Notes: generated from the sequence alone by a model not told the origin. A stretch of DNA of 64,000 nucleotides from Methanobrevibacter sp. (GCF_030539875.1 NZ_JAUNXI010000011.1:1-64000), one strand, 5' to 3'. Counted from the stretch's first letter, positions 57,170 through 63,647 are shown. Numbers and translations are program-made.

Positions 57170-57643
57170 AGCTGCCCCCCAGAATGTATAGATATATATG
57201 ATAAGTATTAGTTAATAAATATAACTATTTCATATAAATTAAACAAAATTATAAAAAATGTATAAAATAATTATACAAAAACAAAAAATAAAAATAAAAA
57301 TAATACGAACTGTTCGTTTAAATCATAAAAAAAATTTCCGATGATAATAATTTTCAGGTGCTAAAAACACAGATGCATAATTTATTTTTTGATAAATGAA
57401 TCTTTGAATTTTAGTGGATTTGCCAAATAATGCTTTGAATTCACGTTGGGCTAAAATGTTTAATAAATACACAGATGTTTTTTTAAATTCAACCATAGTT
57501 ACTTGTCATCTTTTTTTCTTCAACTACTGTAAGCTAAGATTTACAGACAATATGGAATTCTAACTGAATATACATATACCTACGGTTTTCATCACTAAAA
57601 ATTCGATTAAAGGTTTTTCTTTAAATAATAAAATTCATATAAA
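57170..57643. other. Gene-poor region upstream of the V4R regulator
   Basis: It holds the regulator's promoter (TATA-like ATCATATATATC on the minus strand), then leader repeat copy A and AT-rich DNA. A 57-codon minus-strand reading frame (57323-57496) lacks a ribosome binding site and half of it is repeat sequence, so I do not call it a gene. Confidence 0.45.
57301..57420 (+). repeat. Leader-like repeat, copy A
   Basis: Begins with ACGAA-CTG-TTCGT (57305-57317), followed by ATAAAAAAA, TTTCCGATGAT, a TCAGGTGCTAAAA segment and TTTATTTTTTGATAA. The same elements occur in the same order in copies B and D. No gene follows it directly. Confidence 0.6.
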
Positions 57644-57765
57644 TACGAACAATAGTATAAAACTTATAAAAAAGTTCCGATGATTACAAATTCCATCATT
57701 AAAACTCTGATAGCGAATTTATTTTTTGGCAATTATAAATTTTTGGAGGTTGTTCAAAATCTTGA
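57633..57765 (+). repeat. Leader-like repeat, copy B
   Basis: ATACGAACAATAGTATAAAACTTATAAAAAAGTTCCGATGAT is nearly identical to copy D over about 40 bases; the right half of the ACGAA-N3-TTCGT palindrome has decayed. It continues ATTAAAACTCTGATA, TTTATTTTTTG and ATTATAAATTTTTGGAGGTTGTTCAAA. It stands directly in front of the broken ATPase gene, so it is probably that gene's promoter and leader. Confidence 0.65.
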
Positions 57766-57819
57766 TTTTTATTATGCAAATAAGTCACATAATATAATGC
57801 AAAGTTGCACAACAATTAT

Positions 57820-58870
57820 ATGAAGCCTAGACTTATTGATGAATGGCAGATGGCTCCTATTTTATGGGATGCAATGAGAAATAGTGTTGATGAACTTCAT
57901 GAAGATGGATTATACATCCTGACAGGTTCAACTACCATTGATGAAGCGGAAATAATGCATACCGGCACAGGTAGAATCCACAGAGTTCTTATAAGAACAA
58001 TGAGCCTTTATGAAAGCAGTGAATCAAATGGTAAAATTTCAATTTTAGAACAATTTAAAAATCCTGATATGAATATCAATGGCATTAGTTCTGATTTAAA
58101 TGTTAACGATGTAATCTTTGCTGCATGTAGAGGAGGTTGGCCTGAAAGTTTAAATAAAAAATCCGAAAAGGCACAACTGTTCGTGGCAAAGTCTTATGTG
58201 AAAAACATTTGTGAAATCAATGTGTCCTCCTTTGATGATGTTAAACGTGACCCCCAAAAAGTAAGGAAAATATTGAAATCATATTCCAGAAACATTTCCA
58301 CATTAGCGTCAAACTCAACTATTCTAGCAGACATAAATTCTGAACTTAGTATCAGTAAAAATACCCATTATAATTATACCAATGCGTTAAAGAGACTATT
58401 TGTCATAGAGGATGTTCCGGCATGGTCTCCAAACATACGATCCAAAAGTCAGATCAACACCTAAAAAAGAATTTATCGACCCGTCAATTGCAGTTGCTTC
58501 TCTAGGTTTATCTCCGCAAAGCCTAATAGATGATTTGAACACATTCTGTTTTATTTTTGAAACATTATGCATCAGGGACTTAAGAATTTATACAAGTGAG
58601 AAATTGGGAGAAATTTCTTACTATAGGGATAGAAATGGTTTAGAAGCTGATTGTGTAATACATTTAGAAAATGGAGATTATGCTTTGATTGAATTTAAAC
58701 TTGGCAGTGCTGAAATAGAAAAAGGAGCTAAAAACTTATTAAAATTAAAAAATTTGTTAAAAGAGAGGAAATTCAAAGAACCTAAATTTTTAGCAGTTAT
58801 TACAGGGGGCAAATTCGCTTATACCACAGAAGATGATGTAAAAGTAATTCCAATAGGCTGCCTACGTTGA
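57820..58870 (+). pseudogene. Truncated, frameshifted AAA ATPase (AAA_14 / DUF4143 type)
   Basis: The frame opens at KPRLIDEWQMAPILWDA, which is the Walker B region of this ATPase family. The 80-90 residues with the Walker A loop are missing. LTGSTTIDEAEIMHTGTGRIHRVLIRTMSLYESSESNGKI is otherwise well preserved. A frameshift near 58445-58452 moves the reading from NIRSK to VRSTPKKEFIDPSIAVASLGL. The C-terminal nuclease-like DUF4143 part (DRNGLEADCVIHLENGDYALIEFKLG) then runs to the stop. Intact members are 400-450 residues. It cannot make a working ATPase. Confidence 0.85.
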
Positions 58871-59367: not shown

Positions 59368-59721
59368 TATTAAATAATCGTGAAAATTATAAGTTGAAAT
59401 CTAAAATAGGCAAAAATACAAACTAATCTTATTTTATGGTTTGAAACGAATGTTTACGAACAATTCGTATGAAACGTATGATATAGTTCGCAGCCTTATC
59501 AATTTGAACCACAAAAACTCTACTAAAAAATTTATTCTAATTAATTATAAACTTTTTGAAAGTCATTTTAAACCGTGAATTTGATTAAATAAATCATCAT
59601 TAACATTAATGGCTAGAATATTGAAAATAAGAGTTAAAAAACCTATATCAAGAAGTTTTAAAAATTAACATGTGATGTGGATGTTAAAAAAAGAAATGTG
59701 TTAACATAATGTTAACATAAT
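59368..59721. other. Intergenic region holding leader repeat copy C
   Basis: No gene. AT-rich DNA with repeat copy C and about 150 bases without features ahead of the split-barrel gene's stop codon. Confidence 0.5.
59445..59570 (+). repeat. Leader-like repeat, copy C (most diverged)
   Basis: Carries the longest form of the palindrome, TACGAA-CAA-TTCGTA (59455-59469), then a variant of the common series (ATAGTTCGCAGCCTTATCAATTT, AAAAACTCTACTA, TTATAAACTTTTTGAAAG). Extra TACGAA-like half-sites lie on both sides. It is not in front of any gene on its strand. Confidence 0.45.
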
Positions 59722-60126
59722 TTAAATTTCATAAACTTTTGGAGGCTCTCCGGAAAAGTCAGCAATGGTTGCTTTACCTTCTTTAATGGTAAATACTTCA
59801 AATATCGGATTGTCACCGGATTCATATAATGTCTTTACAAGATCATTTGCATCAATTACCTTTTGCTTGATTTCCAAATCATCGACGAATTCCACTTTTC
59901 CGGCAATTCTGAGCCATTGGAATTCGGGAGTGGCTGCAGTCATTTCAAAGTTAGGGTTTGCATCCAATTCCTTGTACATTGGCTTTTGGTTGCTGGTACA
60001 GAAGTATGGTTTATCATCTTCTGCAAAGTAGAATAGTATAGGCCTTACTTTTGCGTTTCCATCAAGTCCTATAGTTGCGAGATATTGCTGAGGGTTTTCA
60101 GTTAAGAATTTGATTACATCTTTCAT
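59722..60126 (-). CDS. Pyridoxamine 5'-phosphate oxidase-like flavin-binding split-barrel protein
   Basis: A 134-residue split barrel: ENPQQYLATIGLDGNAKVRPILFYF at the N-terminus and YFCTSNQKPMYKELDANPNFEMTA are the FMN- or F420-binding strands. The family includes small flavin oxidoreductases acting in anaerobes; the substrate is unknown. It is divergent from the HxlR-Macro-SirTM group. A 12-bp inverted repeat lies 18 bases upstream of its start. Confidence 0.85.
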   Translation of the reverse strand: MKDVIKFLTENPQQYLATIGLDGNAKVRPILFYFAEDDKPYFCTSNQKPMYKELDANPNFEMTAATPEFQWLRIAGKVEFVDDLEIKQKVIDANDLVKTLYESGDNPIFEVFTIKEGKATIADFSGEPPKVYEI

Positions 60127-60143
60127 TTATATCACCTTAATTT

Positions 60144-60180
60144 ATTAATACTAAATCGTTTTATTTTATTTAGTATTAAT
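60144..60180. promoter_or_regulatory. 12-bp inverted repeat at the split-barrel gene promoter
   Basis: ATTAATACTAAA and TTTAGTATTAAT are perfect complements 13 bases apart. The site lies 18 bases upstream of the split-barrel start codon, where it could overlap transcription start. Confidence 0.55.
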
Positions 60181-60214: not shown

Positions 60215-60230
60215 GTTACTTTAAAGTTAC
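60215..60230. promoter_or_regulatory. Direct GTTAC half-sites, one helical turn apart
   Basis: GTTAC occurs at 60215 and 60226, 11 bases apart, in the same orientation. The same half-site makes the inverted repeat 23 bases further on. Confidence 0.4.
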
Positions 60231-60248
60231 TAATAATTGATTATAGCG

Positions 60249-60272
60249 TTTAGTTACTTTTACGTAACTAAA
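60249..60272. promoter_or_regulatory. Probable HxlR-type operator (TTTAGTTAC-N6-GTAACTAAA)
   Basis: A perfect 9-bp inverted repeat with a 6-base spacer, 56 bases ahead of the hxlR-type gene. With the direct GTTAC sites beside it, this makes a compact array suitable for autoregulation by the winged-helix dimer encoded downstream. Confidence 0.6.
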
Positions 60273-60327
60273 ATTTTATTAATAATCGCCAATAGATAAA
60301 TTCATATCCAAATGGAAAAGTGATATT

Positions 60328-60702
60328 ATGGCTAAATTCGAAAGCAATTACTGTCCAGTAAACGAAACCTTAAAAATCATCAGCGGAAAATGGCACTTTC
60401 TAATCATTAGGGATCTGTTCTTCGGCAAAAAAAGATTCAAAGAATTCAAGGAGGATAAACCTAAATTAAGCAATAAGGTTTTAACCGAATGCTTAAAAGA
60501 TTTGGAATCAAATGGACTGATTTCAAAAACCAATATGGATGACTCCAAAATAACAGAATATTGCCTGACTGAAGAAGGAAAAAGAATGAATAGAATCCTT
60601 TATGAACTGGCCATATTCACTTTAAAAAAAGATGATTCCGCAACAGATGCCGAATCTGATGAATTTATAAAGATTTTTAAAGACACATTAGATATTGATT
60701 AA
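60328..60702 (+). CDS. HxlR-family transcriptional regulator
   Basis: A 124-residue winged-helix protein with the HxlR pattern: an N-terminal Cys (CPVNETLKIISGKWHFLIIRDL), RFKEFKEDKPKLSNKVLTECLKDLESNGLI and the wing (KITEYCLTEEGK). In many HxlR regulators the N-terminal Cys senses aldehydes, thiols or oxidants. GTGAT precedes the ATG. The macrodomain gene follows after 23 bases, so the regulator probably controls the ADP-ribosylation genes. Confidence 0.9.
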   Translation: MAKFESNYCPVNETLKIISGKWHFLIIRDLFFGKKRFKEFKEDKPKLSNKVLTECLKDLESNGLISKTNMDDSKITEYCLTEEGKRMNRILYELAIFTLKKDDSATDAESDEFIKIFKDTLDID

Positions 60703-60725
60703 ATTATTCGACTAAGGAGAATTAG

Positions 60726-61502
60726 ATGAGTAGAGAAGAACAACTTGATTTTCTAATTAATTATTTGATTGATGAGAGAAATGAAACTATTGAAATTCCA
60801 AAAGACTACAAAGCTAAAAGAAATCTGCTTCGCTCTTTAATGAATGTAAGAATGCCCTTAAAAATTTCAGACGAATTTTTAAAAGTTCAGGATGATTTCT
60901 TAACTGCCGAAACATTAGGAAAAGATTTGACTTCAGTTGAGGATATAACTGATGTCAACGGCAAAATCATGCTTTGGCAGGGAGATATTGTAACTTTGAA
61001 AGTTGACGGGATTGTCAATGCGGCAAATTCAAAATTATTAGGTTGTTTTATTCCCCTTCACAATTGCATTGACAACCTGATTCACTCAGTAGCCGGATTG
61101 CAGCTCAGAGAGGAATGCAACAGCATGATGCAGCTACAAGGACACGACGAAGAAGTGGGCAAAGCCAAAATCACAAGTGCCTATAATCTGCCTTCAAAAT
61201 ATGTGATTCATACTGTTGGCCCCGCAATCCCTCATGACTCAAAACCTTCCAAAAGCGATTGTGAAGCATTAGAGAATTGCTATAGGTCTTGTTTGGAAAT
61301 TGCAAGTGAAAATAATTTAGAGTCATTGGCATTTTGTGGCATTTCAACTGGAGTGTTTAATTTTCCACAGGATTTGGCGGCTAAAATAGCTACTGATACC
61401 GTTAGAGAGTATTTGAATTCAAATAAAACCAGTTTGAAGCATGTGATTTTTGACGTGTTTTCAGATGAAAGCTATACAACATATAAGGATTTATTGTTTT
61501 AG
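60726..61502 (+). CDS. Zinc-dependent macrodomain ADP-ribosyl hydrolase (SirTM-linked MacroD type)
   Basis: The N-terminal 80 residues are the helical extension typical of the macrodomain proteins encoded beside SirTM. The ADP-ribose-binding macrodomain has [18 protein letters not shown] and [38 protein letters not shown] gives the zinc ligands (Cys107, His112, Cys114) of this subclass. The expected reaction is removal of mono-ADP-ribose from proteins modified by SirTM. It has a GGAGA ribosome binding site, and the SirTM gene follows after 9 bases. Confidence 0.92.
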
Positions 61503-61511
61503 GAGAAAAAT

Positions 61512-62363
61512 ATGAAACATTTCACTAAAAGATTAGACAAGGCATATGACACCATTAATGATGGGGACTATATTCTTGTTGGTGCAGGTGCGGGATTTTC
61601 TGCAGCTGCAGGCATTGAATATTCAGGAAAACGTTTTGAAGATAATTTCAAGGATTTCATTGAGAAATATGGTTTGACTGACATGTATTCTTCCGGATTT
61701 TATCCATTCAAAACTTCCGAGGAAAAATGGGCATACTGGTCCCGTCATGTTTATATGAACAGGTATTCTGTTGGGAAAACCAGATTATATGAACAGCTAT
61801 TGGAACTGGTTGGAGATAAGGAGTATTTTGTGCTGACAACCAATGTAGAACATCAATTTTGGATAAATGGTTTTGAAGACAATAGGATTTTTGCAACTCA
61901 GGGTGACTACGGCCTTTTCCAATGCAGCGAACCCTGCCATGAAAAACTATATTCAAATAAGGATTTTGTTTTTAAAGCTGTTCGAAACATTAACGATTGT
62001 AGAATCCCCACTGATTTAATACCGAAGTGTCCGGTCTGCGGAAAAGAAATGGCCTTGAATCTAAGGGTTGACAATACATTTGTTGAAGATGAAAAATGGA
62101 TGGAAATGTATAATAATTATTCTAAATATTTAGAACATGCTGATGAAGACAGAAACATCGTATTTTTAGAGTTGGGCGTTGGCTTTAACACACCTTCAAT
62201 AATAAGATATCCATTTGAACAGATGACCTATGAAAATCCAAACACCACATTAATTAGGTTAAACAGAAGTTCATCGCAGGCAATATCTCAAAACAAAGAT
62301 AAAACAATTTGTTTTGATGAAAAAATTTCAGAAATATTTGCATATTGGCTTTCGAGGATTTAA
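61512..62363 (+). CDS. SirTM-class sirtuin (protein ADP-ribosyltransferase)
   Basis: A Sir2-fold NAD-dependent enzyme in the macrodomain-linked class M. The nucleotide loop is LVGAGAGFSAAAGI (residues 22-35). The catalytic strand TTNVEHQF (Asn111, His114) matches the class, where modification rather than deacetylation is known. Four Cys (138, 142, 173, 176) bind zinc. In Staphylococcus and Streptococcus such enzymes ADP-ribosylate a lipoylated GcvH-like protein. No gcvH-L or lplA gene is visible here, so the target must differ or be elsewhere. GGAG precedes the ATG. Confidence 0.92.
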   Translation: MKHFTKRLDKAYDTINDGDYILVGAGAGFSAAAGIEYSGKRFEDNFKDFIEKYGLTDMYSSGFYPFKTSEEKWAYWSRHVYMNRYSVGKTRLYEQLLELVGDKEYFVLTTNVEHQFWINGFEDNRIFATQGDYGLFQCSEPCHEKLYSNKDFVFKAVRNINDCRIPTDLIPKCPVCGKEMALNLRVDNTFVEDEKWMEMYNNYSKYLEHADEDRNIVFLELGVGFNTPSIIRYPFEQMTYENPNTTLIRLNRSSSQAISQNKDKTICFDEKISEIFAYWLSRI

Positions 62364-62434
62364 ATTATTTTTTTAAGTTTCTTGTGTTTTCAAGAATCCA
62401 GAAATATTCATATAATGAAGAACAAATTATAATC

Positions 62435-63331
62435 ATGAATGTGTTAATCACTGAAAAAGAAGTGAAAAATGTAATTACAAAATCAAATCTGCCGGTGTGT
62501 GACTTTTCAGTAAATCCATATTTAGGCTGTCTTCATGCATGTAAATACTGCTATGCCTCCTTCATGAAATGCTTTTCAAAACACACAGAACCCTGGGGAG
62601 AATTTTTGGATATAAAATACTGGGATGAAATTAAAAATCCTCATAAATATGATGGAAAAACAATGTTTATCAGCTCAGTTACTGATCCATACCAACCACT
62701 TGAAGAAAAATATGAAAGAACAAAAACATTGCTGGAACAATTACAAGGTGCCAATGTAGGATTGAGCATTGCAACAAAATCCGATTTGATACTAAGAGAT
62801 TTGGATTTGTTGAAATCATTTGAAAACGTTAGAGTTTCTTTTTCAATCAATACTTTAGATGAAAACTTTAAAAATGATATGGATGATGCTGTAAGTATAA
62901 AAAGACGCCTTAAAGCCATGAAAACATTATATGATGAAGGAATTAGAACAACATGTTTTATCTCACCAATATTTCCTGAAATTACTGATGTTCCATCCAT
63001 TATTAACAAAACCAAAGATTATTGCAATTTGATTTGGCTTGAAAATTTAAACTTGAGGGGCGACTATAAATCAACCATCTTAAATTATATTAAAGAAAAT
63101 TATCCTGATTTATTTCCATTATATGATTTGACATATAATAAAAAAGATAGAGGCTATTGGAAGAGTCTGAATAATGAACTTAAGGAATACTGCGAAAATC
63201 AAGGATTGCTGTATCTTAGGGATGATGACTCTATCATACATCCTTTTGATGAACCGCCAATTGTTGTAAATTATTTCTATCATGAAGAAATAACAAAAAC
63301 TGCAAAAAGAAGAAATAACAGACATCATTAG
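62435..63331 (+). CDS. Radical SAM protein (SplB-like, COG1533 type)
   Basis: A 298-residue radical SAM protein: NPYLGCLHACKYCYASF carries the cluster Cys (32, 36, 39), followed by FISSVTDPYQPLEEKYERT and SIATKSDLILRDLDLL. This is the pattern of the spore-photoproduct-lyase-like group whose functions are mostly unknown. I start it at ATG 62435; the longer frame would overlap the SirTM gene by 19 bases with poor ribosome binding. Same direction and a 71-base gap make it a likely, not certain, member of the SirTM operon. Confidence 0.85.
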   Translation: MNVLITEKEVKNVITKSNLPVCDFSVNPYLGCLHACKYCYASFMKCFSKHTEPWGEFLDIKYWDEIKNPHKYDGKTMFISSVTDPYQPLEEKYERTKTLLEQLQGANVGLSIATKSDLILRDLDLLKSFENVRVSFSINTLDENFKNDMDDAVSIKRRLKAMKTLYDEGIRTTCFISPIFPEITDVPSIINKTKDYCNLIWLENLNLRGDYKSTILNYIKENYPDLFPLYDLTYNKKDRGYWKSLNNELKEYCENQGLLYLRDDDSIIHPFDEPPIVVNYFYHEEITKTAKRRNNRHH

Positions 63332-63647
63332 CTATTCAAAACATGAGGAATGATAAGTTGGAAACAATTAAAATATTATCAGTTAATGAATAAGCTTCAC
63401 AATCCAATTCTCTGTTAATATTAACATCAGTTAAGCTATTGAAAACTAACTTTTAAAAACAATTCCATATAAATAAACCCTAAAATAACACGAACAATTC
63501 GTATAAAACTTATAAAAAAGTTCTGATACTTATCAATTTTCAGCACTAAAACTCTGATATGTAATTTATTTTTTGATGATTATAAAATTTTGGAAGGTAT
63601 TTCAAACCTCAATTTATATTGTTGGAATTGTAGCAACTTAATCCAAT
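63332..63647. other. Intergenic region holding leader repeat copy D
   Basis: No gene. It contains a short AT-rich stretch, repeat copy D and the 3' flank of a minus-strand ATPase gene. Confidence 0.5.
63461..63612 (+). repeat. Leader-like repeat, copy D
   Basis: The best preserved copy: a CCATATAAATA TATA-like box, ACGAA-CAA-TTCGT (63490-63502), ATAAAACTTATAAAAAAGTTCTGAT, ACTAAAACTCTGATA, TTTATTTTTTGATGATTATAAAATTTTGGAAGG and TTTCAAA. It points toward the 3' end of the ATPase gene on the other strand, so it no longer serves a gene here. Confidence 0.65.

Follow-up and report, generated by a model that had tools for sequence, protein, structure and literature searches.

A SirTM/Zinc-Macrodomain Pair with a Probable HxlR Regulator and Flavin Partner in Methanobrevibacter, and Its Radical SAM Neighbour

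Introduction

GcvH-L was given in 2024 as the sole known substrate of SirTM, the class M sirtuin, and the target in minimal operons was still open at that time (PMC11490716). A locus of Methanobrevibacter sp., a gut-type methanogen, raises this question anew, as a SirTM gene and a zinc-dependent macrodomain (Macro) gene are found there with a regulator, a flavin protein and a radical SAM protein, and with no lipoyl carrier. A previous, sequence-only reading of this DNA proposed that a SplB-like radical SAM protein takes the place of the lipoyl carrier and ligase of the bacterial systems and possibly makes or repairs the target of SirTM. Which of these neighbours belong to the system, and what could the target be?

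Organization of the Locus

The sequence analysed, referred to as the window, is a stretch of 64,000 nt from Methanobrevibacter sp. (GCF_030539875.1, NZ_JAUNXI010000011.1:1-64000), whose genome is 99.99% complete. All five genes (PPOX, HxlR, Macro, SirTM and radical SAM) were confirmed where the sequence-only reading had located them. The features are listed in Table 1.

Table 1. Genes and sequence elements of the SirTM locus (window coordinates).
Feature	Position	Strand	Remarks
PPOX / flavin split-barrel protein (NimA/Rv1155-like)	59722..60126	-	PF01243, 41.6 bits; divergent from HxlR; probable accessory gene
Perfect inverted repeat ATTAATACTAAAT-N11-ATTTAGTATTAAT	60144..60180	.	Near PPOX start; possible second operator
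Operator copy 1 GTTACTTTAAAGTTAC	60215..60230	+	GTTAC-N6-GTWAC
Operator copy 2 GTTACTTTTACGTAAC	60253..60268	+	GTTAC-N6-GTWAC
HxlR/DUF24-family regulator	60328..60702	+	PF01638, 72.6 bits; N-terminal redox-type cysteine C9 (NYCPV)
Zinc-dependent macrodomain, ADP-ribosyl hydrolase (eraser)	60726..61502	+	NF003163; MorMacro 8RSI
SirTM, class M sirtuin, ADP-ribosyltransferase (writer)	61512..62363	+	SpySirTM 5A3A
T7 run, possible archaeal transcription terminator	62368..62374	+	Sequence motif directly 3′ of SirTM stop
TATA-like ATTCATATA, possible leaderless promoter	62406..62414	+	Sequence motif ~25 nt 5′ of radical SAM ATG
Radical SAM protein rSAM_mob_pairB (TIGR04470)	62435..63331	+	PF04055; adjoins system, probably no member

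Judged from its sequence, the arrangement PPOX(-)/HxlR-Macro-SirTM(+) has at its core a minimal "class M" pair of sirtuin and zinc macrodomain, to which a regulator and a flavin partner are added. The locus is an ordinary example of the published minimal SirTM/Zn-Macro type; the results support the dedicated regulator with its operator and the recurring flavin partner as newly described and apparently unreported features, and SirTM together with HxlR was found in no paper in a literature search.

Writer and Eraser

The closest solved structure to SirTM is SpySirTM (PDB 5A3A, E 2e-53), while no match was obtained in Pfam or NCBIfam. Class M sirtuins are marked by a Q that replaces the catalytic H, together with an Asn, an Arg and zinc cysteines (PMC4518038). 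The window protein has QG (Q130-G131, in TQGDY) instead of HG, it retains the conserved N111 and R185, which correspond to the catalytic N118 and R192 of SpySirTM, and all four zinc cysteines (C138, C142, C173, and C176) are conserved. Macro scored 348 bits with the model NF003163 (protein-ADP-ribose hydrolase, cut-off 272), and among solved proteins it is closest to MorMacro (PDB 8RSI), to which it aligns end to end with 398 bits. The invariant positions of the zinc loop (G106-C107-F108, P110, H112, and C114-N117) are in place, as are the ribose contacts N101 and D116, in a numbering identical to that of MorMacro (PMC11490716). At the sequence level both proteins are intact, with every catalytic and zinc residue that was checked present, so that the complete pair of writer and eraser proposed earlier is borne out by family and structure matches and by signature residues.

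SirTM was found in 76 of 151 Methanobacteriales genomes, many of the relatives being metagenome-assembled genomes with mechanical ORF calls and partly non-independent loci, and almost every SirTM-bearing genome has Macro next to that gene. The genomic linkage that helps to define class M is therefore seen both in the window (Table 1) and in its relatives.

Some variants of the pair were also observed. In genus g9, tandem SirTM genes follow a single Macro gene (L097, 9503-11466); the second of them has lost the QG motif, reading NGDF there, together with part of the LELGVG region, and because of these losses it may lack catalytic function. Tandems of this kind also occur in G022, G034, and G039. 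In addition, the macrodomains of genus g12 (L095, L096, L102, and L103) nest with those of the Clostridia L072 and L074 in the Macro tree (support 100/99), which suggests that these methanogens gained Macro-SirTM from bacteria in a separate event.

The HxlR Regulator and Its Operator

The regulator has a winged-helix HxlR domain and a conserved N-terminal cysteine, as expected of the HxlR/DUF24 family. Its best solved matches are two HxlR/DUF24 redox regulators of Bacillus subtilis, HypR/YybR (4A5M) and YodB (5HS7). The match to HypR starts at the CP cysteine, C9, which aligns with HypR residue 14, and this cysteine is kept in all aligned homologues except one. The operator sequence and the regulated genes of HypR and YodB differ from those of the window regulator, whose redox response is predicted.

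HxlR adjoins Macro in 25 of the 27 named Methanobrevibacter loci (L045-L071). In bacteria, where 79 SirTM loci mostly from two orders were surveyed, neighbours were counted within five genes and the 80th locus (L080), from the archaeon Methanobrevibacter, was left out, HxlR lies near SirTM in 28 loci.

The motif GTTAC-N6-GTWAC was found three times in the window, both strands of the palindrome being counted, against 0.18 matches expected by chance. Two copies lie between PPOX and HxlR and both are kept in the relatives G047, G042, and G011, so that the operator array ascribed earlier to a regulator of its own is upheld. Strict matches occur 5′ of Macro in 35 of 46 archaeal loci, usually just ahead of a TATA box CATTTAAATA as judged by eye. 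When whole genomes were searched, G000, G047, and G040 each carried the GTTACTTTNNNGTWAC form at the Macro-SirTM promoter alone, and G042 carried it at its first SirTM locus, with the palindromic GTTACTTGAAGGTAAC at the second. A regulon search of the rest of the host genome detected the GTTACTTTNNNGTWAC form nowhere else, and the few loose matches were at chance level. HxlR is probably a dedicated local regulator, because the operator marks the SirTM promoter or promoters and almost nothing else genome-wide. Among bacterial HxlR loci the archaeal operator is mostly absent, with L073 and L078 as exceptions.

A further element upstream of PPOX, the inverted repeat of Table 1, has 13-nt arms that are 100% complementary and an 11-nt loop, and is largely, though not perfectly, kept in the three relatives. 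It is unlike the HxlR operator and may be the site of another regulator.

The Flavin Partner

The closest solved relative of the PPOX protein is 2IG6, of the NimC/NimA family. PPOX-HxlR-Macro-SirTM is conserved as a single block of ~2.7 kb in G047, G042, and G011, so that PPOX holds the same position in four genomes, counting that of the window. In genus g9 (L098), PPOX and HxlR are 93% and 69% identical to those of the window, whereas the Macro and SirTM next to them reach only 50-59% identity; this disparity suggests that PPOX and HxlR move jointly to SirTM loci. PPOX also lies 3′ of SirTM in genus g6 (L099 and L100), and PPOX or a PPOX-ferredoxin fusion lies 5′ of Macro in ~14 of the 79 bacterial loci. 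On the other hand, HxlR genes commonly neighbour flavin genes in any case, which counts against reading the linkage as specific, and PPOX is absent from most Methanobrevibacter SirTM loci, which makes it an optional, non-essential partner. The conserved block and the g9, g6 and bacterial loci together indicate that the flavin split-barrel protein probably belongs to the system, which the sequence-only reading had raised as a possibility in passing.

The Radical SAM Gene

The protein encoded downstream of SirTM matches the NCBIfam model TIGR04470 (rSAM_mob_pairB) with 423.1 bits, above the equivalog cut-off of 410; it is not SplB, and the label "SplB-like" is therefore loose. TIGR04470 was the only NCBIfam match above cut-off, with no SPL model among the matches. 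The host genome has no pair A partner (TIGR04471) above cut-off, only a single fragment of 19.8 bits against a cut-off of 355.

It may be asked whether this enzyme is a functional fourth member of the system, which would make or repair the SirTM substrate as an archaeal counterpart of the bacterial DUF1848 and DUF5131 proteins described below. Its gene runs in the same direction as SirTM and starts 71 nt downstream, as such a role would have it, but the survey of archaeal neighbourhoods speaks against membership. A strong pairB homologue beside SirTM was seen in the window alone and in none of the 75 other SirTM-bearing genomes among the 151 Methanobacteriales searched, and ~13 other genomes carry SirTM and the pairB gene on different contigs. 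The case is unique among 49 archaeal SirTM loci, none of the others having any CxxxCxxC protein within six genes of SirTM. HxlR recurs in these neighbourhoods and the radical SAM gene does not; it is unlinked to SirTM in every other archaeal genome examined, an outcome that the sequence-only reading had itself named as a refutation, and the proposal that it stands in for the lipoyl carrier and is tied to the SirTM target fails.

A Shine-Dalgarno sequence precedes HxlR, Macro, and SirTM but not the radical SAM gene, and the T7 run after SirTM and the TATA-like box, both called by eye on A+T-rich sequence, suggest that the latter is likely to have its own promoter. When the three closest relatives (G047, G042, and G011) were compared, homology spanned ~59672 to ~62368 and broke off where SirTM stops. 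Elsewhere in the host genome (L123, 4880-5300, contig C34), a decayed copy of the radical SAM gene, reduced to a 3′ part with 93% DNA identity, lies 3′ of the pst-phoU phosphate operon. A like remnant was found in five other genomes (L118-L122), though a cross-binned contig may be common to some of them. Given the decayed copy, the simplest reading is that the gene is mobile or has recently moved. Most likely, it is a chance neighbour of SirTM, a recent arrival with its own promoter.

Radical-SAM-Like Proteins in Bacterial SirTM Operons

The dismissal of the window's gene is weakened by the bacterial loci, as their SirTM operons include radical-SAM-like genes. DUF1848 lies within five genes of SirTM in 16 of the 79 loci (L075, L076, L158-L169, L172, and L236), and DUF5131 in 5 (L181, L187, L194, L196, and L199). 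Both families bear CxxxCxxC. The usual order is Macro(-3)DUF1848(3)SirTM, in which DUF1848 often overlaps Macro by 3-4 nt and ends 3 nt before SirTM, and it is often, to judge by this spacing, translationally coupled to both. Other orders are Macro-SirTM-DUF1848 (L165 and L169), DUF1848-Macro-SirTM (L075), SirTM-DUF1848 (L236), and a divergent one (L172), and the loci with DUF1848 are scattered over several branches of the Macro tree. No mention of DUF1848 or DUF5131, or of SirTM together with radical SAM, was found in the literature search. The linkage is a solid association, apparently unreported, of families other than that of the window's gene. PADLOC models (RTasDUF1848, of the DRT type, and the DUF5131-like PDC-M30B/M41B) match these operon partners, so the two families occur outside SirTM operons too.

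The Fe-S motifs are nearly alike, CMHLCKYCYAN in DUF1848 and CLHACKYCYAS in the window's radical SAM protein. When the DUF1848 profile was permuted so that the motif came first, its hhalign alignment with pairB lengthened from 19 to 188 columns, although the score remained the same as for the unpermuted motif match (49.9 in both). The structure model of DUF1848 is of moderate quality (pLDDT 65, and below 50 at the Fe-S end), and Foldseek gave weak matches to TIM-barrel and radical SAM structures, none of them, PDB matches included, with E below 1e-3. DUF1848 is possibly a circularly permuted radical SAM protein, which, because of the moderate model and weak matches, is to be taken as a suggestion only.

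The occurrence of DUF1848 and DUF5131 inside bacterial SirTM operons, in several gene orders and branches of the Macro tree, shows that the idea of a link between SirTM and Fe-S/radical SAM proteins is not empty: in its broad form it has an independent echo in bacteria, but not through the gene in the window. Weighed against the archaeal evidence, these parallels leave it unlikely that the window's enzyme is a fourth member. It is similarly doubtful that minimal SirTM/Zn-Macro systems are generally paired with Fe-S radical-SAM-type proteins that replace the lipoyl carrier, DUF1848 or DUF5131 in bacteria and a separately recruited rSAM_mob_pairB in this archaeon, and that SirTM would label the radical-SAM-type protein or its product.

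Proposed Function and Target

The reading preferred here, which we hold to be probable, is that PPOX/HxlR-Macro-SirTM, which is of the published minimal class M type, acts as a switch by reversible mono-ADP-ribosylation under its own redox-type HxlR, with the radical SAM gene as a recent neighbour. In this scheme, an oxidant or electrophile would modify Cys9 of HxlR, and the modified regulator would leave GTTAC-N6-GTWAC and allow expression of PPOX and Macro-SirTM. SirTM would then move ADP-ribose from NAD onto an acidic residue of a non-lipoylated protein, from which Macro would remove it. The PPOX flavoprotein may play the role of OYE and LLM of the staphylococcal/streptococcal operon, and would be the first candidate target. 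We infer the trigger, the binding of HxlR to the operator, and the target.

It might instead be supposed that SirTM and Macro serve in defence, or in the manner of a toxin-antitoxin pair, and not in stress regulation, as the module moves between genomes and the PADLOC models named above (RTasDUF1848 of DRT; DUF5131-like) match its bacterial operon partners. However, Macro, SirTM, and the window's radical SAM protein gave no match at all when scanned with PADLOC, and a redox regulator of the HxlR type with flavin proteins as partners indicates redox control, which renders a defence role very improbable.

With regard to the target, neither GcvH nor an LplA/LipB catalytic domain was detected in the host genome, and the target is therefore not a lipoyl GcvH. 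The absence of a lipoyl carrier and ligase, noticed before at the locus, thus extends to the whole genome, and the check for a GcvH-L/LplA pair elsewhere that could serve SirTM found none. The operon does not belong to the extended type, which has GcvH-L and LplA2 in operon or genome, but to the minimal one, the pair without lipoyl carrier or ligase. True GcvH was found in no Methanobacteriales genome searched; the weak GCV_H matches across the order are nearly all ORFs of ~575 aa that resemble, and presumably encode, biotin-carrier proteins. That a lipoyl carrier encoded elsewhere still serves the system, as in staphylococci and streptococci (PMC4518038), has next to no likelihood in the face of these searches and of MorMacro, from the minimal operon of M. 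oralis, which cannot demodify lipoylated SpyGcvH-L (PMC11490716), and is refuted for the host genome unless the assembly is missing the genes. Of the suggested archaeal version with another target, a non-lipoyl target stands, but it was already implied by published work and is not new; the link of that target to radical SAM does not stand.

Comparison with Known Systems

An archaeal minimal Zn-Macro/SirTM operon without GcvH-L has already been published for Methanobrevibacter oralis (MorMacro, PDB 8RSI-8RSK; PMC11490716). It is from the same genus-level group and has the same Macro-SirTM pair with no GcvH-L/LplA in the operon; the available part of that paper describes the pair alone, to which the window adds HxlR, operator, and PPOX. 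The extended operon of S. aureus and S. pyogenes (PMC4518038) likewise combines writer and eraser with linked flavin oxidoreductases in a setting of oxidative stress, but it has GcvH-L, LplA2, OYE, and LLM where the window has HxlR and PPOX. The bacterial minimal operons with DUF1848 or DUF5131 share the Macro-SirTM pair, often a divergent HxlR, and an Fe-S/radical-SAM-like gene beside SirTM, whereas that gene is of another protein family and tightly coupled in translation, the radical SAM gene of the window being loosely spaced. As for rSAM_mob_pairB itself, the window protein scores above the family cut-off, but its genome is without the pair A partner.

The locus offers a lipoyl-free host together with a dedicated regulator and operator that would show when to look for the SirTM substrate. 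Candidate partners are PPOX in the window and, in bacteria, DUF1848, DUF5131, PPOX-ferredoxin, and cupin proteins. The DUF1848/DUF5131 linkage may offer a more promising route to the missing substrate and merits separate study.

Other Features of the Window

An AAA_14/DUF4143-type ATPase is encoded in two overlapping frames (57805-58464 and 58412-58870) and is probably a frameshifted pseudogene. In addition, a dispersed intergenic repeat of ~115-140 bp (AACAATTCGTAT...), with copies 75-82% identical, was found at 59455-59570, 63465-63606, 57642-57758, and 57286-57393; it lies on both sides of the block from PPOX to the radical SAM gene, and further copies flank the block of G047.
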